64,000 bases of DNA from Thunnus maccoyii. Taxonomy: Eukaryota; Chordata; Actinopteri; Scombriformes; Scombridae. The stretch is from NCBI RefSeq assembly GCF_910596095.1, contig NC_056545.1:69501-133500 (forward strand). Direction: 5' to 3'. The first letter of the stretch is position 1. The number at the start of each line of letters is the position of its first letter. The notes under the pieces are model-generated. The model worked only from the letters and a program-made list of their open reading frames with translations. It made no database searches and was not told the origin of the DNA. The translations under genes and the position numbers were made by a program. Below are positions 8,701 through 61,948 of this stretch, piece by piece.

Positions 8701-11700
8701 CAAAACAAAAACCTCACTGACAGAGAGATGCAGTAAATGATGTTATTCAGTCTGTAATGTAGCTATAATAAAAATCTAAACTGTTATGTAGCTTAATAAA
8801 ATAAATGAAATGAATCTGTTCATTTGAATCCATGTATATGTGTGTAAATGTGGTGATATGTGTACATGTGGAGCTCCAGAGGCAGCGCTGCTGTTCTGTC
8901 CAGTAAAAACATGAAGCTTCACTTTACATTCAGACAAACTAATGTTGCAGCTACAATTGTTAGATTTCATGTGTGAGACCAACATTTATCTTCCAGAAGG
9001 AATTATATCATATATCTAAATGCTGCGGACACATTAGAGCCAGCGGTGAATCAGCAAAGAGCTGCAGATCAGTTCATGGATCATGTTCTCCCCGGGATGA
9101 CCACATGTTGACCGGCCGATCATCTCAGGAGTCGGGCTGCTAGCAGCTGAGATGAGCGGCTGGTCCAAACATCTCCCAACACATCCCAGCAGGTTTACAG
9201 ACTGGAGTTACTGGGATAAACTGGCTACATGTTGGAATCTACATGTTACTTTCTCTCCTGAAAACATTAAAAATTAATAAAGTCACATATTAATAATCCT
9301 ACAACGATAATTACAAAAGCTTTTAGCCTCAAAATCTCCAACATCACTGCCTGTTGGTGTGAAATGCATGCTGGGATACTTGGCTGTCAGCTGCTGATGC
9401 ATCTCTGATAAAACAGGCGGAGCAAGAACACATCCGGGTGTTTGGACTGGACTTGGCTAGATGTGGACTTTGAATTGGAACAGTACTTGGGCTGCGACTG
9501 ATGACGTTTCACAAGTACAGACAAGAACACTGATTGAGAAACGACTCAGGACCGATCATTGATCATTGATCATGTGATAATAGTTTCTGAGACACGTCTT
9601 TCCTGTTGGTTAGTTGTGAATCTTTGAACTTTGACCTCTGTATGTTTATTTCAGGAGGAGGTGCTGGTCCCGACTCTCAGGGTCCTGGTTACTGGGGCAA
9701 CGGGTCTCCTGGGTCGGGCCGTGTGCAGAGAGTTCGAGAACAACGGCTGGTTCGTTATTGGGACGGGATACAGGAGGGCAAGGCCCCGCCTCCTCCGCTG
9801 TGACCTCACAGATGAGGATGCCATCAGAGGATTGCTGCACGAATACAAGGTACAGGACTACAGAGGGTCGGTACTGGACCACAGACGGTCGGTACAGGAC
9901 TACAGGCGGTACAGGGCTACAGACGGTACAGGACTACAATCGGTCAGTACTGGACCACAGGCAGTTGATACAGGACTACAGGCGGTACAGGGCTACAGAC
10001 GGTACAGGACTACAATCGGTCAGTACTGGACCACAGACAGTAGGAACAGGACTACAGACGGTCGGTACAGGACTACAGACGGTCGGTACTGGACCACAGA
10101 CGGTCGATACAGGACTACAGATGGTACAGGCTTGCAGGCAGTACAGGACTGCAGGTGGTACAGGACTACAGACGGTACAGGACTACAGACGGTACTGGAC
10201 TACAGACGGTACTGGACTACAGACAGTACTGGACCACAGACGGTCGGTACTGGACCACAGACAGTAGGTACAAGACCACAGACGGTTGATACAGAACTAC
10301 AGATGGTCGGTACAGGACCACAGATGGACGGTACTGGACCACAGACGGTCAGTACTGGACCACAGACGGTCGATACAGGACTACAGACGGTCGGCACAGG
10401 ACTACAGACAGTCGGCACAGGACTACAGACAGTCGGCACAGGACTACAGACAGTAGATACAGGACTACAGACGGTCGGTACAGGACCACAGACAGTAGGT
10501 ACAAGACCACAGACAGTAGATACAGAACTACAGACGTCGGTACAGGACTACAGACGGTCGGTACAGGACTACAGTCGGCACAGGACTACAGTTGGTACAG
10601 AACTACAGACAGTTGGTACAGGACTACAAATGGTCGGTACTGGACCACAGACAGTCGATGCAGGACTACAGATGGTCAGTACAGGACTACAGACAGTCGA
10701 CACTAGACCACAGACGGTCGGTATTGGACCACAGACAGTAGGTACAGGAACATAGACAGTCGAAACAGGACTACAGACAGTCGGTCTAGGACTACCGAAG
10801 GTCAGTACAGGACTACAGTTGGTTGGTACAGGACTACAGACAGTCGATACAGGACTACAGTCGGTCGGTACAGGACTACAGTCGGTGGTACAGGACTACA
10901 GACAGTCAGTACAGGACTACAGTCGGTCGGTACAGGACTACAGTTGGTGGTACAGGACTACAGACAGTCAGTACAGAACTACAGTCGGTCGGTACAGGAC
11001 TACAGACAGTCAGTACAGAACTACAGGCGGTCGGTACAGGACTACAGGCGGTCGGTACAGGACTACAGTCGGTCAGTACAGGACTACAGTTGGTACAGTG
11101 ATGTTAAAGGTGATGTCTGTCTTTGGCAGCCTGATGTGATCGTCCACTGTGCAGCAGAGAGACGTCCAGATGTGGTGGAGAGACACACTGAGGCAGCTGT
11201 CAATCTCAATGTGCACGCCACGAGCACGCTCGCCAAGGAAGCAGGTAGGTGACCTCTGACCCTTGACCTTCACTCACCTCAATCTGTAAAAATTGTTGAC
11301 TGAGAAACTTTCAAAACAACCTGCACATACAACGTTGTGCACCGAGGACACGGCTTTCATCCTGGAGGGACCTCGTTAATGCTGATTAGTGTGTAAAGTG
11401 TGTGTTGTATGTTGCAGCCGTGTGCGGAGCGTTCTTCCTCTACATGTGTGTTGTATGTTGCAGCCGTGTGCGGAGCGTTCTTCCTCTACATGTGTGTTGT
11501 ATGTTGCAGCCGTGTGCGGAGCGTTCTTCCTCTACATCAGCACCGACTACGTGTTTGATGGCAGGAATCCTCCGTACGGAGAAGACGACACTCCGAATCC
11601 TCTGAACCTGTACGGACGCAGCAAGCTGGAGGGAGAGAGAGAGACACTCCGACACTGTCCAGGTATCTGTCTCACCTGTCTACATACCTGTCTGTCTCAC

Positions 11701-14700
11701 CTGTCTACATACCTGTATGTCTCACCTGTCTACATACCTGTATGTCTCACCTGTCTACATACCTGTCTGTCTCACCTGTCTACATACCTGTATGTCTCAC
11801 CTGTCTACATACCTGTCTGTCTCACCTGTTTACATACCTGTCTGTCTCATCTGTTTACATACCTGTCTGTCTCACCTGTCTACATACCTGTCTGTCTCAC
11901 CTGTTTACATACCTGTCTGTCTCACCCGTTTACATACCTGTCTGTCTCACTCGTTTACATACCTGTCTGTCTCACCTGTTTACATACCTGTCTGTCTCAC
12001 CTGTTTACATACCTGTCTGTCTCACCTGTCTACATACCTGTCTGTCTCACCTGTTTACATACCTGTCTGTCTCACCTGTCTACATACCTGTCTGTCTCAC
12101 CTGTCTACATACCTGTCTGTCTCACCTGTCTACATACCTGTCTGTCTCACCTGTTTACATACCTGTCTGTCTCACCCGTTTACATACCTGTCTGTCTCAC
12201 CCGTTTACATACCTGTCTGTCTCACCCGTTTACATACCTGTCTGTCTCACCTGTCTACATACCTGTCTGTCTCACTTGTTTACATACCTGTCTGTCTCAC
12301 CTGTCTACATACCTGTATGTCTCACCTGTCTACATACCTGTCTGTCTCACCTGTTTACATACCTGTCTGTCTCACCTGTTTACACACCTGTCTGTCTCAC
12401 CTGTTTACATACCTGTCTGTCTCGCCCGTTTACATACCTGTCTGTCTCACCCGTTTACATACCTGTCTGTCTCACCTGTCTACATACCTGTCTGTCTCAC
12501 TCGTTTACATACCTGTCTGTCTCATCTGTTTACACACTGTCTGTCTCACTCGTTTACATACCTGTCTGTCTCACCTGTTTACATACCTGTCTGTCTCACC
12601 CGTTTACATACCTGTCTGTCTCACCCGTTTACATACCTGTCTGTCTCACCTGTCTACATACCTGTCTGTCTCACCTGTTTACATACCTGTCTGTCTCATC
12701 TGTTTACATACCTGTCTGTCTCACCTGTCTACATACCTGTCTGTCTCACCCGTTTACATACCTGTCTGTCTCACCTGTCTACATACCTGTCTGTCTCACC
12801 TGTTTACATACCTCTCTGTCTCACCCGTTTACACACCTGTCTGTCTCACCCGTTTACATACCTGTCTGTCTCACCTGTCTACATACCTGTCTGTCTCACC
12901 TGTTTACATACCTGTCTGTCTCACCCGTTTACATACCTGTCTGTCTCACCTGTCTACATACCTGTATGTCTCACCTGTCTACATACCTGTCTGTCTCACC
13001 CGTTTACACACCTGTCTGTCTCACCTGTTTACATACCTGTCTGTCTCGCCCGTTTACATACCTGTCTGTCTCACCTGTCTACATACCTGTCTGTCTCACC
13101 AGTTTACACACCTGTCTGTCTCACCTGTCTACATACCTGTCTGTCTCACCTGTTTACATACCTGTCTGTCTCGCCCGTTTACATACCTGTCTGTCTCACC
13201 TGTCTACATACCTGTCTGTCTCACCTGTTTACATACCTGTCTGTCTCGCCCGTTTACATACCTGTCTGTCTCACCAGTTTACACACCTGTCTGTCTCACC
13301 AGTTTACACACCTGTCTGTCTCACCAGTTTACATACCTGTCTGTCTCGCCCGTTTACATACCTGTCTGTCTCACCTGTCTACATACCTGTCTGTCTCACC
13401 TGTCTACATACCTGTCTGTCTCACCTGTTTACATACCTGTCTGTCTCGCCCGTTTACATACCTGTCTGTCTCACCAGTTTACACACCTGTCTGTCTCACC
13501 TGTTTACATACCTGTCTGTCTCGCCCGTTTACATACCTGTCTGTCTCACCTGTCTACATACCTGTCTGTCTCACCAGTTTACACACCTGTCTGTCTCACC
13601 TGTCTACATACCTGTCTGTCTCACCTGTTTACATACCTGTCTGTCTCGCCCGTTTACATACCTGTCTGTCTCACCTGTTTACATACCTGTCTGTCTCACC
13701 TGTTTACATACCTGTCTGTCTCACCTGTCTACATACCTGTCTGTCTCACCTGTCTACATACCTGTCTGTCTCACCTGTCTACATACCTGTCTGTCTCACC
13801 TGTCTACATACCTGTCTGTCTCACCTGTTTACATACCTGTCTGTCTCACCTGTCTACATACCTGTCTGTCTCACCTGTCTACATACCTGTCTGTCTCACC
13901 TGTCTACATACCTGTCTGTCTGGTGTGTGTGTTTCCTGTGCCCAGGTGCGGTGGTGCTGCGGGTTCCGGTGCTGTTCGGGGAAGTGGAGTCGGTGTCAGA
14001 GAGCGCCGTGACGTCGCTGTGGCTCAAAGTTCAGGAGGCGACAGAAAGCTGTACGCTGGATCACTGCCAGCAGAGATTCCCCACCGACGCCCGAGACGTC
14101 GCCACCGTCTGCAGGAAGCTGTCCGAGAGAGGGAGACAGGTACCTACCAGTCTGTCTGACTGTCTGTCCATTCGAGAGAGGGAGACAGGTACTAGTCTCA
14201 CTCCCTGTCCGTCTGCCTGTTTCTCCTCAGGACCCATCCATCAGAGGAATCTTCCATTTCTCGGGTAAAGAGCAGATGACTAAATATGAGACGGCCGTCG
14301 CCATTGCTCAGGCCTTCAACCTGCCGTCCAACCACCTCATACCTGTACGTACACATCAATACGGCTCAATCAATATACCTATCAGCATGGATCAATTAAT
14401 ATACCTATCAGCATGGATCAATTAATACACCTCTCAGCATGGCTCAATTAATACACCTATCAGCATGGCTCAATTAATACACCTATCAGCATGGATCAAT
14501 TAATATACCTATCAGCATGGATCAATTAATACACCTATCAGCATGGATCAATTAATACACCTCTCAGCATGGATCAATTAATATACCTATCAGCATGGAT
14601 CAATACACCTATCAGCATGGATCAATTAATACACCTATCAATATATTGACTGATACCAGCCAGTATTGATCAATCAATATATTGACTGATACCTGTCGGT

Positions 14701-15526
14701 ATGGATCGATCAATATATTGACTGATACCTGTCGGTATGGATCGATCAATATATTGACTGATATACTGTCAGTATGGATCGATCAGTATATTGACTGATA
14801 TACTGTCAGTATGGATCGATCAGTATATTGACTGATACCTGTCAGTATGGATCGATCAGTATATTGATTGATACCTGTCAGTATGGATCAATCAGTATAT
14901 TGATTGATACCTGTCAGTATGGATCAATCAGTATATTGACTGATACCTGTCAGTATGGATCAATCAATATATTGACTGATACCTGTCAGTATGGATCAAT
15001 CAATATATTGACTGGTACCTGTCAGTATGGATCAATCAGTATATTGATTGATACCTGTCAGTATGGATCAATCAATATATTGACTGATACCTGTTAGTAT
15101 GGATCAATCAGTATATTGATTGATACCTGTCAGTATGGATCAATCAATATATTGACTGATACCTGTCAGTATGGATCAATCAATATATTGACTGATACCT
15201 GTCAGTATGGATCAATCAGTATATTGATTGATACCTGTTAGCAGCAGATATCAGTGATTAAACTGTGTTGATGATGTTATTGATGATTATTATGGTGATG
15301 TTATTGATGATCTTATGGATCAGGTTATTGATCGCCTCCTGTCTGTCTGCAGCTCACCGAGCAGCCGGCAGCTGCGGCTCTTCGTCCAATCAACAGTCAG
15401 TTAAACTGTTCCCGCCTGGAGCTGCTGAACCTGAGCGTCTCGCCACGACCTTTCACCTCCGCCATCACTGACTGTCTGTGGCCCTTCACCCCCGACAAAC
15501 GCTGGAGACAGACAGTCTTCCACTGA
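5381..15526 (+). CDS. mat2b: mat2b: methionine adenosyltransferase II, regulatory beta subunit
   Basis: Seven coding exons: 5381-5437, 9655-9849, 11130-11244, 11510-11662, 13946-14139, 14231-14344 and 15353-15526 (TGA 15524-15526). They join in phase with GT-AG introns to 1002 nt, 333 aa; human MAT2B is 334. The protein binds the catalytic MAT2A subunit and tunes S-adenosylmethionine synthesis; the fold is an NADP-binding extended SDR. Visible motifs: Rossmann TGATGLLG (residues 32-39), [15 protein letters not shown] in exon 3, STDYVFDG (133-140), and Y157-x-x-x-K161 in NLYGRSK. The end, KRWRQTVFH, is that of the vertebrate protein. The start is chosen because [13 protein letters not shown] resembles the N-terminus of the long human isoform. 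Introns 2, 4 and 6 are largely minisatellite, and the exon 4 acceptor is triplicated; only the third copy keeps frame. No coding lesion is seen. Family assignment is near certain; exact splice use is inferred from phase and homology. Confidence 0.96.
5540..5738. repeat. (TTA)n microsatellites in mat2b intron 1
   Basis: Two trinucleotide tracts (about 5540-5642 and 5690-5738), 100 bp after the exon 1 donor, separated by TACTGCCTG-containing sequence that recurs after the second tract. Leucine and asparagine runs in frames across them are artefacts. Confidence 0.95.
6229..6318. repeat. 24-bp minisatellite, about 4 copies
   Basis: Unit contains ATTGCCTAATCAGTTACACA, in mat2b intron 1. Copies are nearly identical. 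Confidence 0.93.
6600..7260 (-). mobile_element. Non-LTR retrotransposon fragment, C-terminal part of ORF2
   Basis: Minus-strand frames give [11 protein letters not shown] and [14 protein letters not shown] (7200-7060), then [19 protein letters not shown] (6800-6745), all typical of the region after the RT domain in fish LINEs. Frames are broken by stops and shifts. It lies in mat2b intron 1 in antisense orientation. Confidence 0.7.
7340..9654. other. Rest of mat2b intron 1, no gene recognised
   Basis: 7745-8250 is GT- and G-rich with open frames on both strands but no recognisable protein. 8260-9640 shows no array and no conserved exon. A mammal-like alternative first exon of mat2b was looked for and not recognised. 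Confidence 0.5.
9850..11098. repeat. mat2b intron 2 minisatellite (14-21 bp units)
   Basis: About 60 copies of a unit with core GTACAGGACTACAG followed by ACGGTCG-type spacers. The first unit starts at the exon 2 donor itself (exon ends AAG at 9849, intron begins GTACAGGACTACAG). The array ends about 30 bp before the exon 3 acceptor, so it fills nearly the whole 1.28-kb intron. The frame continuing from exon 2 stays open to 10755. Confidence 0.96.
11399..11536 (+). repeat. 46-bp triplication spanning the mat2b exon 4 acceptor
   Basis: Three perfect or near-perfect copies (11399-11444, 11445-11490, 11491-11536). Each has TTGTATGTTGCAG and the first 27 nt of exon 4 (CCGTGTGCGGAGCG onward). Only the third runs on into the rest of exon 4. 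Because 46 and 92 are not multiples of 3, using either upstream AG would shift the frame. Confidence 0.95.
11663..13922. repeat. mat2b intron 4: about 90 copies of a 25-bp unit
   Basis: Unit core CATACCTGTCTGTCTCACC plus TGTCTA or TGTTTA. It begins at the exon 4 donor (GTATCTGTCTCACC) and stops about 23 bp before the exon 5 acceptor. No unit variant creates TAA, TAG or TGA, so all three forward frames stay open for over 2.2 kb. Histidine/cysteine/leucine-rich frames of 764-959 codons here are therefore repeat translations. Confidence 0.97.
14350..15240. repeat. mat2b intron 6 array: 26-bp then 36-bp units
   Basis: 14350-14640 repeats a 26-bp unit with CAGCATGGATCAATTAATAC. 14640-15240 repeats a 36-bp unit with ATATTGACTGATACCTGTC and AGTATGGATC. 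The two share TATGGATCAATCA-type sequence, so the second probably grew from the first. The array begins at the exon 6 donor. Confidence 0.93.
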
Positions 15527-15750: not shown

Positions 15751-15756
15751 AATAAA
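15751..15756 (+). terminator. Probable mat2b poly(A) signal
   Basis: AATAAA 225 bp after the stop codon, in a T-rich 3' UTR. A second AATAAA lies at 15839-15844 with GT/T-rich sequence after it; either could be used. Confidence 0.55.
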
Positions 15757-20700: not shown

Positions 20701-23700
20701 TTAGACTTTCCAAATGTTACGGAGCGGCTGTGGCCCAGGATGTAGAGCGGGTCATCCACTAATCAGAAGATTGGTGGTTCGATTCCCGGCTCCTCCAGTC
20801 TGTATGTCAAAGTGTCCTGGGGCAGGATACCGAACCCCAGATGGCTCCTGATGCGTGGTAGCTTGCTGCCATCAGTGTGTGAGGCCAAAACTGACCAGCT
20901 CTCCTCAACATGCATCCCTCTGTCCACACTGTGTTTCGTCATGTCCAGGCTACGACAGTGTAACGCAGTCACTTGAGGAAAAAAAATCCCTGTTTTTCTA
21001 AATTAACAAGATTCTCAAAATCCTGACTGCGGTAACAGCGCCGTCTGAATTTTGTTGCGCCTAAAGTAGTGTAATTATGGTAAGGACAGCTCCTGAAAGA
21101 TATATATACACGTTTTCTTTCATCTTCCTTCTGTGTTCTTATATAAACATAATGCATTGTACTTTTTTCTCATGTTTGAGCTGTTGTAAGTTTAATTCTG
21201 CAGGTCCAGATGTTCTCTAACAGCGTTAAAGTTCAGTCATCACACTCTACCTGTTTGTGGGATCTATTTTGGGTCCCCTCTTATTCACTGTATACATGTT
21301 ACCCCTGAGGCAAATCATATGTAGACATGTTATCATTTTCATTGCTACACGGATGACACCCAGTTGTATGTCCCTTTAAAGCCTGGTACCATCAATGTCC
21401 TGCCTTGCTGAAATTAATAATTGGATGTCCAAAAATTTCCTGCAATTGAATTACTCCAAATCAGAAATGATTATAATTACCCCTTCTGGCTCCAGCACTA
21501 GCAGCAATCTCTCTAGTCTGGGTTCCTTATCCAGTAATGTTTGTAAAAAGGCTCACAACCGAGGGGTTAATTTTGACTCTGTTGTCTTTTGATACTCAGG
21601 TGATCGAAGTGCTTCAGTCCGACTTTGCCCAACTGAGACAGTTAACCAAGATCAGGTCATTCCTTTCCTCTGCAGACTTACAAAAGGTCATCCATGCTTT
21701 TATCTCCTCCAGACTTAACTATTAACTATAATGCACTTTATTCTGGCATCAGCAGCCATAACATCCAAAGGCTGCAGTTGGTACAAAACGCTGCTGCCAG
21801 GCTTTTAACATGTGACCACATTACACCAATCCTTGCTGCCCTTCACTGGTAACCTGTGAGTTTTAGAATTGAGTTTAAGATGTTATTGCTTGTTTTAAAG
21901 GCTTGAATAGTCAGGCTCCTACCTTAATCTGATATTTGCTAACTCCCTATGAGCCATATTGCTGCTTGAGATCCTCCATCAGGGCCCTACTGATTGCTCC
22001 AAGATCTGAATTTGTCACTAGAGGGGCCTTTGCTGTTCAGGCCCCTCAGCTGTGGACCTCTGCCTGGAGATAAACTCAGAATCCACTTTTAACACTATTA
22101 AACTATTGACACTATTTAAATTATTTTAACTGGTTTATATCTTGTGTTATTTATTTTCTGTTTTTATTGTCCTGAACCTTTTAATGAACCTGTCTCTTAG
22201 ATCCCATCCCAACTAGGCTGCTTAAGGAAGCCTTACCCTTAGTGAGCACTTCTTTACTAGACATGATCAATCTGTCTTTAGTAACAGGCTATGTACCACA
22301 GTCCTTTAAAGTAGCTGTAATTAAACCTCTTCTTAAGAAGCCTACTCTTGATTCAGGTGTTTTAGCCAATTATAGACCTATATCTAACCTTCCATTTCTA
22401 TCCAAGATCCTTGAGAAAGCAGTCTCTAATCAGTTATGTGACTTTCTACATAACAATAGTTTATTTGAGGATTTTCAGTCAGGATTTAGAGGCATCATAG
22501 CACAGAAACAGCACTGGTGAAAGTCACAAATGACCTCCTAACTGCATCAGACAAAGGATTTGTCTCTATACTTGTCCTGTTAGATCTTAGTGCTGCATTT
22601 GACACAATTGACCATCAAATCCTTTTGCAGAGACTGGAACATTTAATTGGCATTAAAGGAACTGCATTAAGCTGGTTTAAGTCCTATTTATCAGACCGAT
22701 TTCAGTTTGTACATGTTAATGATGAATCCTCCGTGAAGGCAAAAGTTAGACACGGAGTTCCACAAGGTTCTGTACTTGGACCAATTCTATTCACCTTATA
22801 TATGCTTCCTTTAGGTAATATTATTAGGAATCACTCCATAAATTTTCATTGTTACGCAGATGACACCCAATTATATTTATCAATGAAGCCAGATGAAACC
22901 AATCAGTTAAACAAACTCCAAACATGCCTTAACGACATAAAGACCTGGATGACCTGCAATTTTCTACTACTAAATTCAGATAAAACTGAAGTTATTGTGC
23001 TTGGCCCTAAACACCTTAGAAACACATTATCTAATGATAAAGCTACTCTGGATGGCATTACCCTGGCCTCCAGCACCACCGTAAGGAATCTGGGAGTTAT
23101 CTTTGATCAGGATATGTCCTTTAACTCCCACATAAATCAAATTTCAAGGACTGCCTTTTTTCACTTACGTAATATCACAAAAATCACATCCTGTCCCTAA
23201 AAGATGCAGAAAAACTAGTTCACGCATTTGTTACTTCTAGGCTGGATTATTGCAATTCCTTATTATCAGGCTGCCCTAACAAGTCTCTAAAGACTCTCCA
23301 GCTGGTCCAGAACGCAGCTGCACGTGTTCTGACTAAAACTAGAAAAAGAGATCACGTTTCTCCCATTTTAGCTTCGCTGCATTGGCTTCCTGTAAAATCT
23401 AGAATAGAATTTAAAATCCTTCTCCTAACTTACAAAGCCCTTAATGGTCAGGCACCATCATATCTTAAAGAGCTCATAATACCGTATTATCCCACTAGAA
23501 CACTGTGCTCCCAGTATGCAGGCTTACTGGTGGTCCCTACAGTCTTTAAAAGTAGAATGGGAGGCAGAGCCTTCAGCTATCAGGCTCCTCTTCTATGGAA
23601 CCATCTACCGGATTCAGTCCGGGGTGCAGACACCCTCTCTATGTTTAAGAGTAGGCTTAAAACTGATAAAGCTTATAGTTAGGGCCGACCAGGCTCGCCT

Positions 23701-48036: not shown

Positions 48037-48150
48037 TCAGTAGCAGTACTGCGTACAGTAGCAGTACTGTGTACAGTAGCAGTACTGCAGTCAGTACACA
48101 CAGTACTGTGTACAGTAGCAGTACTGCGTTCAGTAGCAGTACTCTGTAGT
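48037..48150. repeat. 18-bp minisatellite, about 6 copies
   Basis: AGTAGCAGTACTGCGTAC and AGTAGCAGTACTGTGTAC units, downstream of dck. Confidence 0.9.
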
Positions 48151-48247
48151 ACAGGTTTGGTGTGACGTTTGCAGTTTGACTGAAAAGACAAAAATCTTGA
48201 AGCGTTTAAATAAAGTTTCAGACAATTTAAATCAGTCCGAGTGTTAA

Positions 48248-48253
48248 TTTATT
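48248..48253 (-). terminator. Candidate dck poly(A) signal
   Basis: TTTATT on the plus strand (AATAAA on the minus), about 430 bp after the stop codon. If used, the 3' UTR includes the dinucleotide tract at 48390-48472. Confidence 0.45.
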
Positions 48254-48387
48254 CAAACTGACAGATTCATACAGAAACCTGAAGGCATCGTGGTGCGTTC
48301 ACAGACGGCTCATTATTAGCTCCCAGAAGATAAAATGATTCAGACTGAAGCATAAATATGAAACTAATTCAAGTAAATACGTGTTTC

Positions 48388-48389
<2 letters not shown>

Positions 48390-48472
<83 letters not shown>
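48390..48472. repeat. (CA)n microsatellite in the dck 3' region
   Basis: About 40 CA units with one CTAA break; reads (TG)n in the dck transcript. Confidence 0.97.
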
Positions 48473-48476
<4 letters not shown>

Positions 48477-48679
48477 GCTTTACTGACTGACATTTTAACA
48501 TTTGATTACAAAATAAAAATATACAAGTGAAGAGACTAAAAGTCTGAATCTTTACACTGAAGTTCTGCTTTAAAAGAATCCGACAGCTTCAGCAGAAAAC
48601 ACGAAACATTTACAAAGTGTGACGCGGTCGTCCAATCAGAAGAGCCCGCTGCTCGCATCACAAGCTGGTCGGTGAAGAT

Positions 48680-48897
48680 CTACAGCGTGGCGAGGAACTC
48701 TCGTACCTGAAAACAGACGATAGATGAAAAAAAAACAACAACATACAAATCATCTGAAACGTTGAATCAAAGACAGAAAATAAAGAAGAATTCTCACTTT
48801 GTCAACGATCGCCGCCTGTTTGATGCGGTCGCTCTTAAAGTCGTCATCAACGTCCAAGACGAGGACGGGAAGCTCGTTCAGGTACTCAAAGTCCAAC

Positions 48898-48976
<79 letters not shown>

Positions 48977-51900
48977 TAATGTCAGTTTCCTGAGTCTGAC
49001 CCTGAATGCACCACAAAAACAGCTTTAAATCAAACATAACTTTTAATGTACAGACTCTAAAGGGATGCTCTGAGCGCGCTCAGTGCGCCGTGTTGTGAGC
49101 GCGCTCAGTGCGCCGTGTTGTGAGCGCGCTCAGTGCGTACCTGAGGTTCCTGTGGAAGAGCCAGGACTCGTGTTTGAAGTGAAGCTGTTCCAGGTACTCC
49201 AGAGGGATCCCCTGTTCCTCCTCCCTGCCGCGGTGCAGCAGCCGCTGCATACAGCGCTGAAACACACAGACACTCACCGTGAGCCTGAATGCACCACTGA
49301 CATATAATATGTTCAGGTGTAACTCTGTGACAGGTGTACTGCGGCAGTAGTACCGTCTCATCTCCGGTTGCTGAAGTTAATTTTGCTTTATTCTTCATTT
49401 CTGCAGATAATTACCAGCTGTTCGTTAAACCTTCACTAGTTCTGCTCAAACACTCGTTGCCGGGAAGCCGGGAGGCCGGGGCGGCCCTAAGCAGAAGCCC
49501 ACGGTACACCACCAACCAGTTCATGTTTCTAACTGGTTCTCCCCCCTCAGTAACACACCTGCTTGTGCTCTCTGATTATCGGCAGCTCCATAGTCAGAAA
49601 CGTGAAGTTATCGACAGCAGCAGCTATAGTTAAATGTATTCCTGGGACCAGAGCGGACGACACTGAATCACATTTAAACTGCTGGCTGAGAATAAACGTA
49701 AATATGAGACGATTGTTATTCACGTCGGTGGGAACGACTCCTGATTACACCAATCAGAGGTCACTAAGATCAATGCTGAGTCGGTTTGTTAATATGCAGA
49801 AACAATGTGGGACTCTGTAGTTTCCTCTGGACCGCTGCCTGATCTGACCAGTGATGTCATGTATAGTCACATGTCATCATTCAACCGCTGGCTGTCGAGG
49901 TGGTGTCCAGCAAACGATGTGGGCTTCATAGATAACTGGCAGACTTTCTGGGGAAGACCTGGTGGACTCTTGAACATTAGATCTCTGTCATCTGAAGCCG
50001 TATTAGTAAACGATCTAATCTCATATCATCATATTGATTGATTGTCTTACTGAAACCTGGCTGTGTCATGAAGAACATGTCAGTCTAAATGAATCCAGTC
50101 CTCCCAGTCATATTAATACTCACATTCCTCCAGACACTGGCCGAGGAGGAGGAGTCGCAGCCTCATTATCAACTCTAGACCTGAACTTCATTATAACTCA
50201 TTAGAAAGTCTTCAATCTCAGGACTCTTCCCACAGAGAGCAGGTCTGAACTCTTTCATCTACAGAGACCCAACGTTCCTCCATCAGCAGGAAAAACAGGA
50301 AGAAACCTCAAGCAGAACCGGACTCTAGGTGGCGCCGTCTGCCTCGACCGGATGGGTTGAGACAGAAAGAAGGAGAGAGACACAGAGAAGCACAACAACA
50401 ACAACAACAACAACAACAATAATAGTAGCTGAAGGTTTCCTGCGAGACCAGAAAGCACAAAAAACTCCGGGGAAGAAGCAAAGTTAGTGACATGCATTGA
50501 TGTTACATGAATGCATACAGATGGAGAGGAGGAGGAGGAGAGAGGAGCTCAGTGCATCATGGGAAGTCCACCAGTAGTCTAGGCCTATAGCAGCATAACT
50601 AAGGGCTGATCCAAGGCGAGCCTGGTCGGCCCTAACTATAAGCTTTATCAAAAAGGAAAGTTTTAAGCCTACTCTTAAACATAGAGAGGGTGTCTGCACC
50701 CCGGACTGAATCCGGTAGATGGTTCCATAGAAGAGGAGCCTGATAGCTGAAGGCTCTGCCTCCCATTCTACTTTTAAAGACTGTAGGAACCACCAGTAAG
50801 CTGCATACTGGGAGCACAGTGTTCTAGTGGGATAATACGGTATTATGAGCTCTTCAAGATATGATGAAGAGGTTTAATTACAGCTACTTTAAAGGACTGT
50901 GGTACATAAGACAGACTGATCATATCTAACTAAGGGTAAGACCTCCTCCAGCAGCCTAGTTGGGATGGGGTCTTAGAGACAGATTGATGGTTCAATGAAG
51001 AAATCGTTGAAGTTAGTTCAGGAAGGTCGATTAGAGGAAAATCTTAAACGTAGAGCGTCAGCCTCGTGGAGGGACGTTGGGTCTCTGTAGATTAAAGAGT
51101 TCAGTCTAGACCTGCTCTGAGAGACCGGCAGCAGCAGCTTTATTACCTGTGGTTGTGCTCTCAGGTAGATGATGGCGTCCAGGGCGATGTCGCTCTCAAA
51201 CTGGTTCAGTAACCAGGTGTGCCAGTCTTGATAAACGCTCCACTCCGTGTCTGTGAGGTTACCACACTCAAACAGGTTGGACGCAAACACGTACCTGCAC
51301 ACACACAGTACACAGCGTTACTGCAGTACCGTCCGCTGTACCGCCTGTACTCACCTGTCTCAGGTGTGTCTTTACCTGTCGGAGTAGACGGAGCGCTCGT
51401 AGAACTGAACAGGTTTCTCTGCCTGCTGGACTTTGACTGACGGACACTGAAGCTGAGAACGAACTCTGCTGAGACACGCATAGCTCTGAGAGACAGACAG
51501 GTAGAGAGAGACAGACAGGTAGAGAGACAGACAGGTAGAGAGAGACAGACAGGTGGAGAGACAGACAGGTGGAGACAGACAGGTAGAGAGACAGACAGGT
51601 AGAGAGAGACAGACAGGTAGAGAGAGACAGACAGGTAGAGAGAGACAGACAGGTAGAGACACAGACAGGTAGAGAGACAGACAGGTAGAGAGAGACAGAC
51701 AGGTAGAGAGAGACAGACAGGTAGAGAGAGACAGACAGGTAGAGAGACAGACAGGTAGAGAGAGACAGACAGGTAGAGAGAGACAGACAGGTAGAGAGAC
51801 AGACAGGTAGAGAGAGACAGACAGGTAGAGAGAGACAGACAGGTAGAGAGAGACAGACAGGTAGAGAGACAGACAGGTAGAGAGAGACAGACAGGTAGAG

Positions 51901-54900
51901 AGACAGACAGGTAGAGAGAGACAGACAGGTAGAGAGAGACAGACAGGTAGAGAGAGACAGACAGGTGGAGAGACAGACAGGTAGAGAGACAGACAGGTAG
52001 AGAGAGACAGACAGGTGGAGAGACAGACAGGTGGAGACAGACAGGTAGAGAGAGACAGACAGGTGGAGAGACAGACAGGTAGAGAGACAGACAGGTAGAG
52101 AGACAGACAGGTAGACACAGACAGGTAGCGAGAGACAGACAGGTAGAGAGAGACAGGTAGACACAGACAGGTAGAGAGAGACAGGTAGAGAGAGACAGAC
52201 AGGTGGAGACAGACAGGTAGAGAGAGACAGGTAGACACAGACAGGTAGAGAGAGACAGGTAGAGAGACAGACAGGTAGACACAGGCAGGTAGAGAGACAG
52301 ACAGGTAGAGAGAGACAGACAGGTAGAGACAGACAGGTAGAGAGAGACAGGTAGAGAGACAGACAGTTAGTTGTGGTGAAACAGCTCCATCTGTTGATCT
52401 CATCACCACCTGAGATGTTTAGTAGGAGGAGTCATGTGGATCAGGGGGAGGGTCATGTGGATCAGGGGGAGGGGTCATGTGGATCAGGGGGAGGGTCATG
52501 TGGATCAGGGGGAGGGGTCATGTGGATCAGGGGGAGGGGTCATGTGGATCAGGGGGAGGAGTCAGCATGTAGTCAGGGGGAGGAGTCATGTGGATCAGGG
52601 GGAGGGGTCATGTGGATCGGGGGGGTCATGTGGATCGGGGGGGGTCATGTGGATCAGGGGGAGGGGTCAGCATGTAGTCAGGGGGAGGAGTCATGTGGAT
52701 CAGGGGGAGGGTCATGTGGATCAGGGGGAGGGGTCATGTGGGTCAGGGGGAGGGGTCAGCATGTAGTCAGGGGGAGGAGTCATGTGGATCAGGGGGAGGG
52801 GTCATGTGGATCGGGGGGGTCATGTGGATCAGGGAGAGGGGTCAGCATGTAGTCAGGGGGAGGAGTCATGTGGATCAGGGGGAGGGTCATGTGGATCAGG
52901 GGGAGGGGTCATGTGGATCAGGGGGAGGGTCATGTGGATCAGGGGGAGGGGTCATGTGGGTCAGGGGGAGGGGTCATGTGGATCAGGGGGAGGAGTCAGC
53001 ATGTAGTCAGGGGGAGGAGTCATGTGGATCAGGGGGAGGGGTCATGTGGATCGGGGGGGTCATGTGGATCGGGGGGGGTCATGTGGATCAGGGGGAGGGT
53101 CATGTGGATCAGGGGGAGGGTCATGTGGATCAGGGGGAGGGGTCATGTGGGTCAGGGGGAGGGGTCAGCATGTAGTCAGGGGGAGGAGTCATGTGGATCA
53201 GGGGGAGGGGTCATGTGGATCGGGGGGGTCATGTGGATCAGGGAGAGGGGTCAGCATGTAGTCAGGGGGAGGAGTCATGTGGATCAGGGGGAGGGTCATG
53301 TGGATCAGGGGGAGGGGTCATGTGGATCAGGGGGAGGGGTCATGTGGGTCAGGGGGAGGGGTCAGCATGTAGTCAGGGGGAGGGGTCAGCATGTAGTCAG
53401 GGGGAGGAGTCATGTGGGTCAGGGGGAGGGGTCATGTGGATCGGGGGAGGGGTCATGTGGATCGGGGGAGGGGTCAGCATGTAGTCAGGGGGAGGGGTCA
53501 GCATGTAGTCAGGGGGAGGAGTCATGTGGATCAGGGGGAGGGGTCATGTGGATCAGGGGGAGGGGTCAGCATGTAGTCAGGGGGAGGGTCATGTGGATCA
53601 GGGGGAGGAGTCATGTGGGTCAGGGGGAGGGGTCATGTGGGTCAGGGGGAGGGGTCATGTGGGTCAGGGGGAGGGGCCAGCATGTAGTCAGGGGGAGGGT
53701 CATGTGGATCAGGGGGAGGAGTCATGTGGGTCAGGGGGAGGGGTCATGTGGATCAGGGGAGGAGTCATGTGGGTCAGGGGGAGGGGTCAGCATGTAGTCA
53801 GGGGGAGGGTCATGTGGATCGGGGGGAGGGGTCATGTGGATCAGGGGGAGGGGTCAGGCGTACCTGGAAGGTGTAGGACCAGCGGCTGGGTTTGTCATAG
53901 AGCATGTGCAGCAGGTTTCCTCCGCTCTTCTGAGACGAACTCAACTCCTGCAGACAGTTTAACATCAGCACTTTATTCTGAAAGGACAGTGATGTCATTG
54001 TGTGACATCATCAGGTGTGACATATTCACCTGGTAAACGTCGTCGCTGTCGTTCTGGACGTTGCACCATTTCCCGATGGGCTCAGGTATCACCTCCCAGT
54101 CCTCCGACGCTGCCTGCAGGAGGCGCACAAACGTAGACTTACCTGCAGCTGAGAGACAGACAGGTGAGTCAGAGAGAGACAGACAGGTGAGTCAGAGACA
54201 GACAGGTGAGTCAGAGAGAGACAGACAGGTGAGTCACAGACAGACAGGTGAGTCAGAGAGAGACAGGTGAGTCAGAGACAGACAGACAGGTGAGTCAGAG
54301 ACAGAGAGACAGGTGAGTCAGAGACAGACAGACAGGTGAGTCAGAGACAGAGAGACAGGTGAGTCAGAGACAGACAGACAGGTGAGTCAGAGAGAGACAG
54401 ACAGGTGAGTCAGAGACAGACAGACAGGTGAGTCAGAGACAGACAGACAGCTGAGTCAGAGACAGACAGACAGCTGAGTCAGAGACAGACAGACAGCTGA
54501 GTCAGAGACAGACAGACAGGTGTGGTTTGTGATGATGATTTGTGTTTAGAAACAGTCAAAATTCAGTAACTCTGTATTCATGTAGGCTAATAAAGTTTAT
54601 GGTAGTAAAGTTTATAGATTATAAATATGATGTATTTTACAGTTTATAGATTATAAATATGATGTATTTTACAGTTTATAGATTATAAATATGATGTATG
54701 TTACAGTTTATAGATTATAAATATGATGTATGTTACAGTTCATAGATTATAAATATGATGTATGTTACAGTTCATAGATTATAAATATGATGTATTTTAC
54801 AGTTTATAGATTATAAATATGATGTATTTTACAGTTTATAGATTATAAATATGATGTATGTTACAGTTTATAGATTATAAATATGATGTATGTTACAGTT

Positions 54901-57466
54901 CATAGATTATAAATATGATGTATTTTACAGTTTATAGATTATAAATATGATGTATTTTACAGTTTATAGATTATAAATTTGATGTATTTTACAGTTTATA
55001 GATTATAAATTTGATGTATGTTACAGTTCATAGATTATAAATATGATGTATTTTACAGTGTATAGATTATAAATATGATGTATGTTAGTGTATAGATTAT
55101 AAATATGATGTATTTTACAATTTATAGATTATAAATATGATGTATTTTACAATTTATAGATTATAAATATGATGTATTTTACAGTGTATAGATTATAAAT
55201 ATGATGTATTTTACAGTTTATACATTATAAATATGATGTATGTTACAGTTCACAGATTATAAATATGATGTATGTTACAGTTCATAGATTATAAATATGA
55301 TGTATGTTACAGTTCATAGATTATAAATATGATGTATTTTACAGTTTATAGATTATAAATATGATGTATGTTACAGTTTATAGATTATAAATATTATGTA
55401 TGTTACAGTTCATAGATTATAAATATGATGTATTTTACAGTTTATAGATTATAAATATGATGTATTTTACAGTTTATAGATTATAAATATGATGTATGTT
55501 ACAGTTTATAGATTATAAATATGATGTATTTTACAGTTCATAGATTATAAATATGATGTATTTTACAGTTTATAGATTATAAATATGATGTATGTTACAG
55601 TTTATAGATTATAAATATGATGTATTTTACAGTTTATAGATTATAAATATGATGTATGTTACAGTTTATAGATTATAAATATGATGTATGTTACAGTTTA
55701 TAGATTATAAATATGATGTATTTTACAGTTTATAGATTATAAATATGATGTATGTTACAGTTCATAGATTATAAATATGATGTATTTTACAGTTTATAGA
55801 TTATAAATATGATGTATGTTACAGTTTATAGATTATAAATATGATGTATTTTACAGTTCATAGATTATAAATATGATGTATTTTACAGTTTATAGATTAT
55901 AAATATGATGTATGTTACAGTTTATAGATTATAAATATGATGTATTTTACAGTTTATAGATTATAAATATGATGTATGTTACAGTTTATAGATTATAAAT
56001 ATGATGTATTTTACAGTTTATAGATTATAAATATGATGTATGTTACAGTTTATAGATTATAAATATGATGTATGTTACAGTTTATAGATTATAAATATGA
56101 TGTATGTTACAGTTTATAGATTATAAATATTATGTATGTTACAGTTCATAGATTATAAATATGATGTATTTTACAGTTTATAGATTATAAATATGATGTA
56201 TTTTACAGTTTATAGATTATAAATATGATGTATGTTACAGTTTATAGATTATAAATATGATGCATTTTACAGTTCATAGATTATAAATATGATGTATTTT
56301 ACAGTTTATAGATTATAAATATGATGTATGTTACAGTTTATAGATTATAAATATGATGTATTTTACAGTTTATAGATTATAAATATGATGTATGTTACAG
56401 TTTATAGATTATAAATATGATGTATGTTACAGTTTATAGATTATAAATATGATGTATTTTACAGTTTATAGATTATAAATATGATGTATGTTACAGTTTA
56501 TAGATTATAAATATGTATGTTACAGTTCATAGATTATAAATATGATGTATGTTACAGTTTATAGATTATAAATATGATGTATTTTACAGTTTACAGATTA
56601 TAAATATGATGTATGTTACAGTTTATAGATTATAAATATGTATGTTACAGTTTATAGATTATAAATATGATGTATGTTACAGTTTATAGATTATAAATAT
56701 GATGTATTTTACAGTTTACAGATTATAAATATGATGTATGTTACAGTTTATAGATTATAAATATGTATGTTACAGTTTATAGATTATAAATATGATGTAT
56801 GTTACAGTTTATAGATTATAAATATGATGTATGTTACAGTTTATAGATTATATTTAGATATACTGTGTATAATAGTTAATATAAGTAAGTACATTATATA
56901 ATATTAACTGTGTTTGATTATGAACGCACTACTTTGTTTATCTGATGGGTTTCTTGGCGCCAATCCGCTACGTGACGGCGGGACAGAGAACCGACAGAGC
57001 TGACCGGCCTCCATCTTACTGCCCGCGCATCAGCACAGCCAAACAAAATGGACACAAAGTCATGAACCTGAAATACATCAAACTGCACCGTTTACCGGAG
57101 TTTAACGGGAAGAACCGGGACTGAACTCACAGTTTACCGGAGTTTAACGAGAAGAACCGGGACTGAACTCACAGTTTACCGGAGTTTAACGGGAAGAACC
57201 GGGACTGAACTCACAGTTTACCGGAGTTTAACGGGAAGAACCGGGACTGAACTCACAGTTTACCGGAGTTTAACGGGAAGAACCGGGACTGAACTCACAG
57301 TTTACCGGAGTTTAACGGGAAGAACCGGGACTGAACTCACAGTTTACCGGAGTTTAACGAGAAAACCGGGACTGAACTCACCGATGTTTCCCTCGATGGA
57401 GATCTTCTTCTCTCTGCGGGAGAAACCGGCGGGAACACCGCGCGCTCTCTTCGGTGGAGTCGCCAT
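48680..57466 (-). CDS. dck: dck: deoxycytidine kinase
   Basis: Eight coding exons on the minus strand: 57466-57382, 54148-54030, 53947-53864, 51485-51376, 51294-51147, 49256-49141, 48897-48798, 48706-48680 (stop 48682-48680). They join in phase to 789 nt, 262 aa; human DCK is 260. The enzyme phosphorylates deoxycytidine, deoxyadenosine and deoxyguanosine in nucleoside salvage. Visible: MATPPKR start as in mammals, P-loop GNIAAGKST (26-34), general-base glutamate in PEP (E51), ERSVYSDR (126-133), lid [15 protein letters not shown] (191-205) and C-terminal VREFLATL. There is no mitochondrial presequence, which argues against dguok or tk2. Introns 1 and 3 are mostly minisatellite, intron 6 carries (TG)35 at the acceptor, and intron 5 a rearranged L2 LINE. 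The start is set by the conserved N-terminus in a GC-rich promoter context. Confidence 0.96.
48901..48970. repeat. (CA)35 at the dck exon 7 acceptor
   Basis: Seventy uninterrupted bases of CA. On the dck strand the intron ends (TG)n then CAG, directly before exon 7, with no separate polypyrimidine tract. Confidence 0.97.
49071..49137. repeat. 25-bp repeat, 2.7 copies, at the dck exon 6 donor
   Basis: Units start at 49071, 49096 and 49121 and include TGAGCGCGCTCAGTGCG with the palindrome GAGCGCGCTC. The third copy runs into the donor GTACGC of exon 6. Confidence 0.94.
49390..51118. mobile_element. Rearranged L2 LINE in dck intron 5
   Basis: 49390-50215 is plus-strand L2 5' sequence: ORF1 with an SGNH/esterase-like part ([13 protein letters not shown], then [19 protein letters not shown] and [13 protein letters not shown]) followed by endonuclease sequence ([23 protein letters not shown]). 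50216-51020 is minus-strand L2 3' sequence resembling copy B but missing about 1.1 kb between bases equivalent to 44427 and 45548. 51072-51118 is a plus-strand L2 3' scrap. The ends of the minus-strand block are near-perfect inverted repeats of each other. Confidence 0.8.
51486..52371. repeat. 16-20-bp minisatellite at the dck exon 4 acceptor
   Basis: About 48 copies of ACAGACAGGTAGAGAG(AG). On the dck strand it is a C/T-rich run (CTACCTGTCTGTCTCTCT) that leads straight into CTCAG and exon 4. Confidence 0.96.
52425..53858. repeat. 21-24-bp minisatellite at the dck exon 3 donor
   Basis: About 62 copies of GGGGGAGGGGTCATGTGGAT plus CA, with AGCATGTAGTCA and GATCGGGGGG variants. On the dck strand it is CCCCTCCCCCTGA-rich and begins about 6 nt inside intron 3. 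With 51486-52371 it makes up nearly all of this 2.4-kb intron. Confidence 0.96.
54150..54522. repeat. 18-24-bp minisatellite at the dck exon 2 acceptor
   Basis: About 17 copies of AGACAGACAGGTGAGTCAG-type units. On the dck strand it is a C/T-rich run ending CTGTCTCTCAG at exon 2. Confidence 0.95.
54574..56850. repeat. 32-bp A/T-rich minisatellite in dck intron 1, about 70 copies
   Basis: Unit TTTATAGATTATAAATATGA plus TGTATGTTACAG or TGTATTTTACAG. Over 75% A+T for 2.3 kb. A few units lack GATG. Confidence 0.97.
57095..57380. repeat. 42-bp array of the dck exon 1 donor region
   Basis: About 6.5 copies with TTTACCGGAGTTTAACGGGA, AGAACCGGGACTGAACTCAC and AG. The last copy runs into the true exon 1 donor: GGGACTGAACTCAC is GTGAGTTCAGTCCC on the dck strand, and the same GTGAGTTCAG recurs in each unit. 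Confidence 0.95.
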
Positions 57467-59330: not shown

Positions 59331-59339
59331 TCTGACGTC

Positions 59340-59454
59340 ACTACACCTGTGGGAGGCAGCAGCGCGCTAAACCTGCCCAGTCTGCCGGACACACGAAGAA
59401 GAAAGTCGTCTTTGCACATGCGCACTGTGTAACAGGGATCCAGCGTTAGAGAAG
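59340..59454 (+). promoter_or_regulatory. pfdn1 promoter-proximal region
   Basis: Short CpG-containing stretch before the start codon with AGCGCGCTAAACC and TTTGCACATGCGCACTGTG; the latter (TGCGCA palindrome) resembles an NRF1-type site. Inference only. Confidence 0.35.
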
Positions 59455-61948
59455 ATGGCAGCGCCCATAGATCTGGAGTTGAAGAAGGTACCGCGCGTTA
59501 AACTCCCCTGCTCTTACCTGTCTGTCTGCTCTTACCTGTCTGTCTGCTCTTACCTGTCTGTCTGCCGCTACCTGTCTGTCTGCCGCTACCTGTCTGTGTT
59601 TAATGAAGAGCCGACACACTAACAGCTAACAGCCGAGCTAACTGCAGCACGAGGAGCTAACCCTGATTCATTACACTCACGCGAGCAGTATCAAGTACCT
59701 GATGTCCACGTGCAGCTGATTATCAGTAACTGTTCTCAGTGTTCAGAGTTAAACTGAGTGTCTGTGAGTCACAGAAACCTGCAGCTCAGCCCGGTCAGTG
59801 AACGCATCAGTACAGATGTGTGTGTGTCAGTGAACGCATCAGTACAGGTGTGTGTGTGTGTCAGTGAACGCATCAGTACAGATGTGTGTGTGTCAGTGAA
59901 CGCATCAGTACAGATGTTTGTGTGTCAGTGAATGCATCAGTACAGATGTGTGTGTGTCAGTGAATGCATCAGTACAGATGTTTGTGTGTCAGTGAACGCA
60001 TCAGTACAGATGTGTGTGTGTCAGTGAACGCATCAGTACAGATGTTTGTGTGTCAGTGAATGCATCAGTACAGATGTGTGTGTGTCAGTGAACGCATCAG
60101 TACAGATGTTGTGTGTTGTATTCTGTCCTTTATTTTATGAAACACCAGAACAGGAAATGAAGTTTTTAAAGGGCTTTTTTTTTGCCCTGATGAAATGTTT
60201 CAAATGATGGAATGGATGAAGGTTGTCCAGGTGTTTTTAATCAGAGCGAGACCTCCTGCAGGTGAAAGCTGTCCAGGTGTTTTTAATCAGAGCGAGACCT
60301 CCTGCAGGTGAAAGCTGTCCAGGTGTATTTAATCAGAGCGAGACCTCCTGCAGGTGAAAGCTGTCCAGGTGTATTTAATCAGAGCGAGACCTCCTGCACG
60401 TGAAAGCTGTTCAGGTGTATTTAATCAGAGCGAGACCTCCTGCACGTGAAAGCTGTTCAGGTGTATTTAATCAGAGCGAGACCTCCTGCACGTGAAAGCT
60501 GTTCAGGTGTATTTAATCAGAGCGAGACCTCCTGCACGTGAAAGCTGTTCAGGTGTATTTAATCAGAGCGAGACCTCCTGCAGGTGAAAGCTGTTCAGGT
60601 GTATTTAATCAGAGCGAGACCTCCTGCACGTGAAAGCTGTTCAGGTGTATTTAATCAGAGCGAGACCTCCTGCAGGTGAAAGCTGTCCAGGTGTTTTTAA
60701 TCAGAGCGAGACCTCCTGCAGGTGAAAGCTGTCCAGGTGTTTTTAATCAGAGCGAGACCTCCTGCAGGTGAAAGCTGTCCAGGTGTTTTTAATCAGAGCG
60801 AGACCTCCTGCAGGTGAAAGCTGTTCAGGTGTATTTAATCAGAGCGAGACCTCCTGCAGGTGAAAGCTGTTCAGGTGTATTTAATCAGAGCGAGACCTCC
60901 TGCAGGTGAAAGCTGTTCAGGTGTTTTTAATCAGAGTGAGACCTCTCTCTCCGCAGGCGTTCTCGGAGCTGCAGGTGAAGATGATCGATACGCAGCAGAA
61001 AGTGAAGCTGGCCGACCTGCAGATCGATCAGCTGACTCGTGTTCAGAAACATGCTAAGCTAACTCACGCTGAGATCACCACGCTGCCTGACAACACACGG
61101 CTGTATGAGGGCGTCGGACGCATGTGAGTCTCCATGGCAACGGCCAGGTTACCTGTGACACACACACACACAAACCTAATGATCATATTATTGATTAAAG
61201 TTGGCGTGTGTAGAAGTCACAGCTTTGTTCCACCTATAAGTTTACAGTGATTACACTTCATTCTGTCCCTGAGATACTACATTACCCATGAGCCTCGGCT
61301 GCTGCTGCTGCTATGGAGAAGAAGCCAGTCATAGGTGTGAATCCAAACGCTTGGTTACTGAAGTTGTAAACAAAACGTGTCGCCATGGTTACTGAAGTCA
61401 CTCAAAGTGAACTGATTTAATCTGCATAATCTTCAACTTCTGATCACTGCCAGCGGTGCATGTGATCAAATTCTAAGCTCTGTGATTGGTTGTTTCTGGC
61501 TGAAATGCACCTTGGGAGTCGTAGTTAACTTTTTACTGAAGAATCAGAGATTTATTAACAGCTGTTGTTTTGTTGAGTTTAATGCTGATCAGAAAATTGA
61601 AACATCTGCTGCCGTCGCACATCTGCACATCTGTACATCTACACATCTGTACATCTGCACATCTGTACGGCACAAACAGAGAAAATCAGAGTCTCCTTTA
61701 AGAATGCACGTCTGTGATTGGACGTCTGTTTATTGATAAAATTCCCAGTTACCATAAATCCTCTAAAAGTGTGCAGGACCTTTATTCACCTGAGTGCTCT
61801 TCATCAGACACACACCTGGATTTCTAAAGGTCACCTGTGTGTGTGTGTGTGTGTGTGTTTCAGGTTCATCCTGCAGTCGAAGGAGGAGATCAATAATCAG
61901 CTGACGGACAAACAGAAAACAGCTGATGAGAAGATCAAAGAACTTGAG
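59455..61948 (+). CDS. pfdn1: pfdn1: prefoldin subunit 1 (partial, last exon not found in window)
   Basis: Three coding exons: 59455-59487 (MAAPIDLELKK), 60957-61123 and 61864-61948, joining in phase to residues 1-95; the human protein has 122. Prefoldin 1 is a beta-type subunit of the hexameric prefoldin chaperone that hands nascent actin and tubulin to the CCT chaperonin. Conserved segments seen: MIDTQQKVKLADLQIDQL, LYEGVGRMFILQSKEEI and KTADEKIKELE, covering the first coiled coil, the beta-hairpin region and the start of the second coiled coil. The expected last exon (about 27 codons) is not visible from 61949 to 64000, most of which is minisatellite, so it probably lies beyond the right edge. 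Intron 1 ends in a 46-bp array made of acceptor-like units, and the exon 3 acceptor follows a (GT)n run. Confidence 0.95.
59511..59598. repeat. 18-bp repeat after the pfdn1 exon 1 donor, 5 copies
   Basis: CTCTTACCTGTCTGTCTG and CCGCTACCTGTCTGTCTG units, starting 24 nt into intron 1. Confidence 0.93.
59780..60112. repeat. 32-bp minisatellite in pfdn1 intron 1
   Basis: About 10 copies with AACGCATCAGTACAGATGTG and TGTGTGTCAGTG. Confidence 0.95.
60228..60945. repeat. 46-bp minisatellite at the pfdn1 exon 2 acceptor, about 15 copies
   Basis: Unit GGTGTTTTTAATCAGAGCGA, then GACCTCCTGCAGGTGAAAGC and TGTCCA. The final, diverged unit is the genuine acceptor: TTTTAATCAGAGTGAGACC, TCTCTCTCCGCAG, exon 2. 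Confidence 0.96.
61830..61863 (+). repeat. (GT)n-T3-CAG at the pfdn1 exon 3 acceptor
   Basis: About 12 GT units, then TTTCAG directly before exon 3. Same layout as the dck exon 7 acceptor. Confidence 0.93.

Follow-up and report, generated by a model that had tools for sequence, protein, structure and literature searches.

The window considered here, a stretch of 64,000 nucleotides of Thunnus maccoyii DNA (positions 69,501-133,500 of the 32,533,796-base contig NC_056545.1, assembly GCF_910596095.1), carries mat2b, a slc22a-type transporter gene, dck and the first exons of pfdn1, and many introns of these genes hold minisatellites whose edges lie at or close to exon-intron junctions. A first-pass annotation of the window attributed this arrangement to splice-site sequence seeding tandem duplication. 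We consider it reasonably probable, instead, that the minisatellites originated in place near the chromosome end and expanded within short introns until probable constraints of splicing stopped them, junction-spanning duplications being rare. The pattern looks more like known repeat growth at chromosome ends than like a new splice-seeded process.

Tandem repeats near the contig end

Tandem Repeats Finder (TRF) returned 98 rows for the window, which merge into 50 arrays covering 29,127 of the 64,000 bases (45.5%). The arrays are head-to-tail, with units mostly of about 7-100 bp and some of 2-4 bp, and the guanine-cytosine (GC) content of array DNA is 0.426, against 0.428 in the remaining DNA. 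Arrays occur in 17 of the 28 complete introns, nine of which are more than half array, and eight of the 11 array-free introns belong to slc22a.

Tandem repeat content was sampled in 20 places on this one contig, both ends included, the first 10 kb being 75% N. It amounts to 1.6-14.6% at 10-30 kb, to 35.0, 57.1, 8.3 and 30.2% between 30 and 69.5 kb, to 57.0, 69.1 and 19.6% between 133.5 and 163.5 kb, and to 52.2% at 300 kb, which gives a dense zone with 8-69% tandem repeats across the samples from 30 to 310 kb. Eight interior samples, from 0.6 to 32.0 Mb, hold 3.5 (in a sample with 25% N), 5.0, 8.3, 1.0, 2.5, 0.2, 2.0 and 0.0%, and the last 10 kb of the contig hold 59.3%. By this sampled gradient the arrays follow the contig end, which is probably also the tip of the chromosome.

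Genes related to slc22a were examined at eight loci elsewhere, where arrays occur in 4 of 58 introns and tandem repeats make up 0.7% of the DNA, compared with 17 of the 28 window introns and 15 of the 19 introns of the adjoining genes described below. The closest paralog, at 19.55 Mb of the contig, has no array in its eight introns over 6.7 kb, and one locus, 1.14 Mb from a contig start, carries two of the four array-bearing introns. The eight loci, some of them partial, are among a larger number of match places listed, two introns across gaps were left uncounted, and some paralog introns may be wrong, since query identity was about 30-67% per exon.

The units are private to their loci in the two arrays that were searched against the genome. 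The donor-side array of dck intron 1 has at least one match, namely itself (the match counts are lower bounds), and the array of slc22a intron 3 has at least 12 matches within itself, at 83-100% identity, and at least eight elsewhere, at 67-74% identity only. From these two arrays, dispersed satellites or mobile elements were rejected as the origin of the repeats.

Array edges and exon-intron junctions

Exon models were built on anchored splice sites, and all 28 complete introns of the window are GT-AG. The mat2b model (plus strand, seven exons) has an intact coding sequence of 321 amino acids; that of the slc22a-type transporter (minus strand, 14 exons) is provisional at its modelled 5' end and at the end of its last exon; dck (minus strand, eight exons) is intact, and pfdn1 (plus strand) has exons 1-3 inside the window. 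MAT2B was identified by a PDB match of exon 2 and dCK by a PDB match of the whole protein, and the Pfam domains RmlD_sub_bind, dNK, Prefoldin_2 and Sugar_tr were found at the window genes. The names pfdn1 and slc22a, as well as SLC23A1 and TTC1 for the neighbouring genes, are those that we take to apply.

The arrays nearest to junctions are given below, with distances in nucleotides from the junction to the array edge; a negative distance means that the array extends into the exon, and a slash marks a junction within a motif.

9849-11089, plus strand: mat2b intron 2 array, 21 bp x 60.7, starting at the last exon base (donor -1), with 25 copies of GGTACAG, the true donor among them
11399-11537, plus strand: mat2b intron 3/exon 4 array, 46 bp x 3.0, 100% identical, acceptor -28
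11666-13921, plus strand: mat2b intron 4 array, 25 bp x 90.3, donor +3 and acceptor 24 nt away, with a strong donor motif on the antisense strand only
14124-14213, plus strand: mat2b exon 5/intron 5 duplication, 49 bp x 1.9, donor -16
14366-15332, plus strand: mat2b intron 6 arrays, TRF rows of 26, 36, 12 and 24 bp, donor 21, acceptor 20
25847-25891, minus strand: slc22a intron 5 (GACA)n, donor 4
26344-30914, minus strand: slc22a intron 3 arrays, 21 bp x 215.9 and 21 bp x 2.4, acceptor 8, donor 214
34079-34128, minus strand: slc22a exon/intron 1 array, 20 bp x 2.5, covering the donor (-19); at the acceptor of intron 1 the distance is 7
48901-49137, minus strand: dck intron 6 arrays, 25 bp x 2.7 (donor 3) and (TG)35 (acceptor 3), about 100 nt apart
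51488-52370, minus strand: dck intron 3 acceptor-side array, 34 bp x 27, 81% pyrimidine, acceptor 2
52425-53856, minus strand: dck intron 3 donor-side array, 22 bp x 65.5, donor 7, the sense unit being without a donor-like site
54154-54522, minus strand: dck intron 1 acceptor-side array, 23 bp x 16.6, 75% pyrimidine, acceptor 5
57081-57381, minus strand: dck intron 1 donor-side array, 42 bp x 7.2, beginning at intron base 1 (donor 0), with seven copies of GTGAGT
59508-60945, plus strand: pfdn1 intron 1 arrays, units of 18, 32 and 46 bp, donor 20, acceptor 11, the last array with 10 CCTGCAGG

The first-pass annotation had listed 12 borders at arrays, and by the gene models and TRF 11 of them indeed have an array within 30 nt; the remaining one is in pfdn1 intron 2, where TRF reports a single array, at distances of 493 and 195 nt from the two junctions, and the acceptor has a short (TG) run that TRF omits. 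Absent from that list were the near-junction arrays of mat2b intron 5 (donor) and of slc22a introns 1 (donor and acceptor), 3 (acceptor) and 5 (donor), nor did the annotation mention the 11 introns that carry no array.

When the arrays of the 17 array-bearing window introns are shuffled within their introns, the 34 junctions show a clear excess of near edges, with 11 within 5 nt against 2.8 shuffled (P<1e-4), 14 within 10 nt against 5.0 expected under uniform placement, and 20 within 30 nt against 11.7 shuffled. As a second set, 19 introns of the adjoining subtelomere were taken (12 of SLC23A1, six usable ones of TTC1 and pfdn1 intron 3), 15 of them with arrays, which gives 30 junctions. TTC1 introns 1-3 were excluded because of a spurious alignment across the unconserved N terminus, TTC1 "intron 4" because it proved to be an open coding repeat, and pfdn1 introns 1-2 because they already form part of the window set. 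In these 19 introns there is one edge at 0 nt against 0.39 under the null (P 0.33), no excess within 5 nt (3 vs. 2.29, P 0.40) and none within 10 nt (6 vs. 4.19, P 0.18), but within 30 nt 15 are found against 9.72 (P 0.0014). Array edges do lie closer to junctions than shuffled ones, in the window and, at the looser distance, in the flanks, so the comparison that the first-pass annotation had proposed does not refute its claim; the "systematic" anchoring that it described is not confirmed, since the tight form seen in the window is absent from the flanks, where the loose form alone recurs. Among the flanking features, pfdn1 intron 3 carries a degenerate telomere-like array (contig 133581-134404, AAACCCTAACCCTAAACCCTGAACCC..., 61 bp x 13.1), and TTC1 has an in-frame coding minisatellite (contig 143302-143809), a 171-codon open stretch of EEEQGDRLQ-type repeats.

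Arrays that span a junction are few: they occur at 4 of the 64 junctions of array-bearing introns. They were compared with a null in which each array is collapsed to one unit and overlap with junctions is permitted; in mat2b intron 6 two adjoining arrays were merged and entered as 36 x 16.7, so that the collapsed length of this intron is too large. Over both sets the four spanning arrays stand against 9.2 expected (P(<=) 0.005), a deficit to which the flanks contribute 1 vs. 4.0 (P 0.006) and the window 3 vs. 5.2 (P 0.13, not significant). Under the same null, with spanning included, the window excess within 5 nt shrinks to 11 vs. 7.4 (P 0.035), and in the ten window introns of small residual length it is 9 vs. 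7.2 (P 0.20).

The four spanning arrays multiply a splice signal in different ways. Each of the three identical copies at mat2b intron 3 includes the acceptor together with 27 nt of exon 4, and splicing to an upstream copy would lengthen the exon by 46 or 92 nt, with a change of frame. At mat2b intron 5, 16 exon nucleotides and the donor are duplicated, and the second donor, 49 nt downstream, would likewise cause a frameshift if used. The unit over the donor of slc22a intron 1 takes in 19 nt of coding exon, and its copied site reads CAG/GC (GC, not GT). In the flanking SLC23A1 intron 10 (contig 48,043-49,009), the 60-bp units present 17 TTTCTCAG, the true acceptor included. None of the four contains both splice sites of an intron within one duplicated unit, each holding one site only, which argues that these introns did not themselves arise from tandem duplication. 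More broadly, a unit carrying a copy of the adjoining signal was seen by eye at five window junctions (the donors of mat2b introns 2 and 5, dck intron 1 and slc22a intron 1, and the acceptor of mat2b intron 3), with partial copies at the acceptors of dck intron 1 (CTCAG/CTG in three units) and pfdn1 intron 1 (CCTGCAG/G in ten units). The multiplication of splice signals that the first-pass annotation proposed does occur in a few arrays, among them mat2b intron 3 with its three identical acceptors and SLC23A1 intron 10.

Splice-like motifs within the arrays were scored with weight tables. Arrays near donors (n=15) show no sense bias for donor motifs (median -0.2 bits in sense, 4.2 in antisense; P 0.92 for sense over antisense), and arrays near acceptors (n=15) show none for acceptor motifs (median 1.6 in sense, 0.4 in antisense; P 0.23). 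CAGGT occurs at 5.9 per kb in array DNA vs. 2.1 elsewhere, and ACCTG at 6.0 vs. 2.0, an equal, approximately threefold enrichment. Splice sites that abut arrays are not stronger than others, be they donors (5.9 vs. 7.4 bits, P 0.18) or acceptors (7.5 vs. 8.6, P 0.18). The acceptor-side arrays of dck introns 1 and 3, slc22a intron 3 and TTC1 intron 9 are pyrimidine-rich in sense (0.75-0.84), but the ten acceptor-abutting arrays taken together show no such richness (median 0.54 vs. 0.54, P 0.15), and the supply of pyrimidine tracts was rejected as a general rule.

Three further kinds of repeat were observed in the window. An intergenic array of 14-bp units (39416-43620, about 284 copies) has stop-free frames of up to 1437 codons and was taken as a repeat, not a gene. 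By eye, mutually similar fragments of reverse transcriptase resembling that of long interspersed nuclear elements lie at 22188-23682 (plus strand, slc22a intron 8), 44192-45988 (minus strand, intergenic) and 50484-50873 (minus strand, dck intron 5). A (CA)n tract of about 257 units (1745-2259) runs directly into a G-rich 35/70-bp minisatellite at 2259-3630.

Origin and limits of the arrays

According to the reading favoured here, minisatellites would arise in situ by tandem duplication of local subtelomeric sequence and would grow by ordinary minisatellite turnover, presumably through slippage, break repair and unequal exchange. Because array-free introns are short (73-240 nt, n=15), an array that expands within one to a length of hundreds or thousands of bases is flanked by short stubs only. 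In the 16 of 47 introns of both sets that are more than half array, the stub has a median length of 11 nt on the donor side and 21.5 nt on the acceptor side, values that resemble the sizes of the donor and acceptor splice signals. Selection on splicing would probably fix the limits of an array, which would end beside the donor signal and, towards the acceptor, next to the pyrimidine tract, unless the array itself supplies the tract. Duplications that span a junction would mostly be lost, surviving where one intact exon-junction-intron copy stays, in which case the splice site is multiplied, as may have happened in the four spanning arrays. The location at the contig end with its repeat gradient, the positions of the arrays, the deficit of spanning arrays, the lack of strand-specific donor motifs and, in the two arrays searched, the units private to their loci are observations; the mutational mechanism, the part played by selection and the splice sites in use are inferred. 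When mat2b introns 5 (14140-14230) and 4 (11663-13945) are collapsed to a single unit, 47 and 51 nt remain, less than in any array-free intron (at least 73 nt), a hint that these introns lost unique sequence once the arrays were present.

Several observations weigh against this reading, and the tight junction excess of the window is partly unexplained by it. The excess within 5-10 nt persists in the window when residual intron length is taken into account, and short introns as a full explanation were rejected, since the null conditioned on that length still leaves it. In the band from -1 to +8 nt, the spanning-allowed null predicts 2.2 edges for the window, where 11 are observed; for the flanks the expected and observed counts are 1.8 and 4 (P 0.09), and for the two sets combined they are 4.0 and 15, so that the loss of spanning arrays alone does not produce the excess. 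In window introns with several arrays, these tend to occupy both ends and to be separated by a central spacer (P 0.018, nine introns; P 0.0045 over seven introns when mat2b intron 1 and slc22a intron 8 are omitted), an arrangement not seen in the flanks (P 0.54 over six introns). If splice signals set the limit, donor and acceptor stubs should differ in length, but the difference observed falls short of significance (P 0.33, n=16), and for this reason a limit set by splicing is put forward as probable only. Donor motifs of at least 6 bits occur in 3 of 15 near-donor arrays in sense and 4 of 15 in antisense, against 4 of 102 strands of the 51 arrays outside modelled introns, and the sense acceptor scores of near-acceptor arrays are slightly above those of the same outside arrays (P 0.04). 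Moreover, the evidence comes from one contig of one assembly and from its DNA sequence alone.

The proposal of the first-pass annotation is that pyrimidine tracts and CAG/GT preferentially start duplications, so that arrays are born on junctions; DNA made fragile by co-transcriptional splicing would be another route to the same result. This view draws on the tight excess and the -1 to +8 nt band, on the introns with arrays at both ends, and on units that include a donor or acceptor at mat2b introns 2, 3 and 5, dck intron 1, slc22a intron 1 and SLC23A1 intron 10. It is nevertheless unlikely, given that the excess within 5 and 10 nt over shuffled positions is missing from the 19 independent introns, that junction-spanning arrays, which it predicts, are in deficit, that donor motifs lack a sense bias and abutted sites are not stronger, and that arrays are few away from the contig ends. 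A related combination, in which the birth of duplications in chromosome-end genes is biased to exon-intron borders (for example, by co-transcriptional structures or splice-site repair), separate arrays form at both intron ends and spanning arrays provide extra splice sites from which new isoforms could evolve, we likewise hold to be improbable.

Chance together with the reader's choice of window, so that random placement in short introns meets a regional fluctuation, would account for the lack of tight excess over shuffled positions in the flanks and for the modest figure in the ten introns of small residual length, the window having been picked for the pattern; given the P value below 1e-4 over all 28 window introns and the recurrence of the 30-nt excess in the flanks, it seems rather improbable too. 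Least credible, and very unlikely, is that near-junction arrays are retained by functional selection because they provide redundant splice signals or enhancers: the pyrimidine-rich sense strand of several acceptor-side arrays would fit this, yet the acceptor-abutting group as a whole is not richer in pyrimidines, the extra mat2b sites would shift the frame if used, and both of the searched arrays are private to their loci. In-place growth of minisatellites near the chromosome end remains the reading that we prefer.

Significance and known systems

The window offers a natural case of how far repeats can grow inside genes whose coding exons stay intact, with introns that are almost all array and array edges near splice signals, and it illustrates that chromosome position can account for much of a pattern noticed in a single window. 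The tight junction excess leaves one sharp question, and the junction-spanning copies are candidates for alternative splicing. Among the entries listed in a literature search there was no report of such a pattern in a fish, a result that does not establish its absence.

The closest parallel to the regional pattern is found in human subtelomeric variable number tandem repeats (Linthorst et al. 2020, PMC7608644), which show a strong enrichment of long-unit repeats near chromosome ends, about 40% of the study's structural variants being intronic. In both cases long-unit tandem repeats are concentrated toward the ends, but the human enrichment, as described there, covers the last 5 Mb with units above 60% GC, whereas here the sampled dense zone is a few hundred kb, GC is not raised and short introns are filled. 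In the dog, LHX3 (PMC3223203) likewise has an intronic short tandem repeat, in intron 5, whose copy number is linked to aberrant splicing; it is one 7-bp repeat of six copies, however, and the lesion is a contraction, not growth as here.

Other systems resemble the junctions themselves. Human internal tandem repeats at exon-intron boundaries, with units averaging 30 bp, were described by De Grassi and Ciccarelli (2009, PMC2812944) and are similarly minisatellite-sized; they belong to recent segmental duplications and altered the exon-intron structure between paralogs, while the present arrays lie in contig-end genes with intact coding exons. Intron gain by tandem genomic duplication (PMC4974935) shares a duplicated segment that holds splice-like sequence, but the spanning units described here hold one of the two splice sites. 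Finally, the splice-donor minisatellite of human IFI6 (6-16) (Turri et al. 1995) has units over an exon-intron junction that multiply the splice signal, as at mat2b introns 3 and 5, slc22a intron 1 and SLC23A1 intron 10; two downstream repeat units of IFI6 are reported to act as donor sites, whereas the extra sites in this region are known from DNA, and those of mat2b would shift the frame if used.

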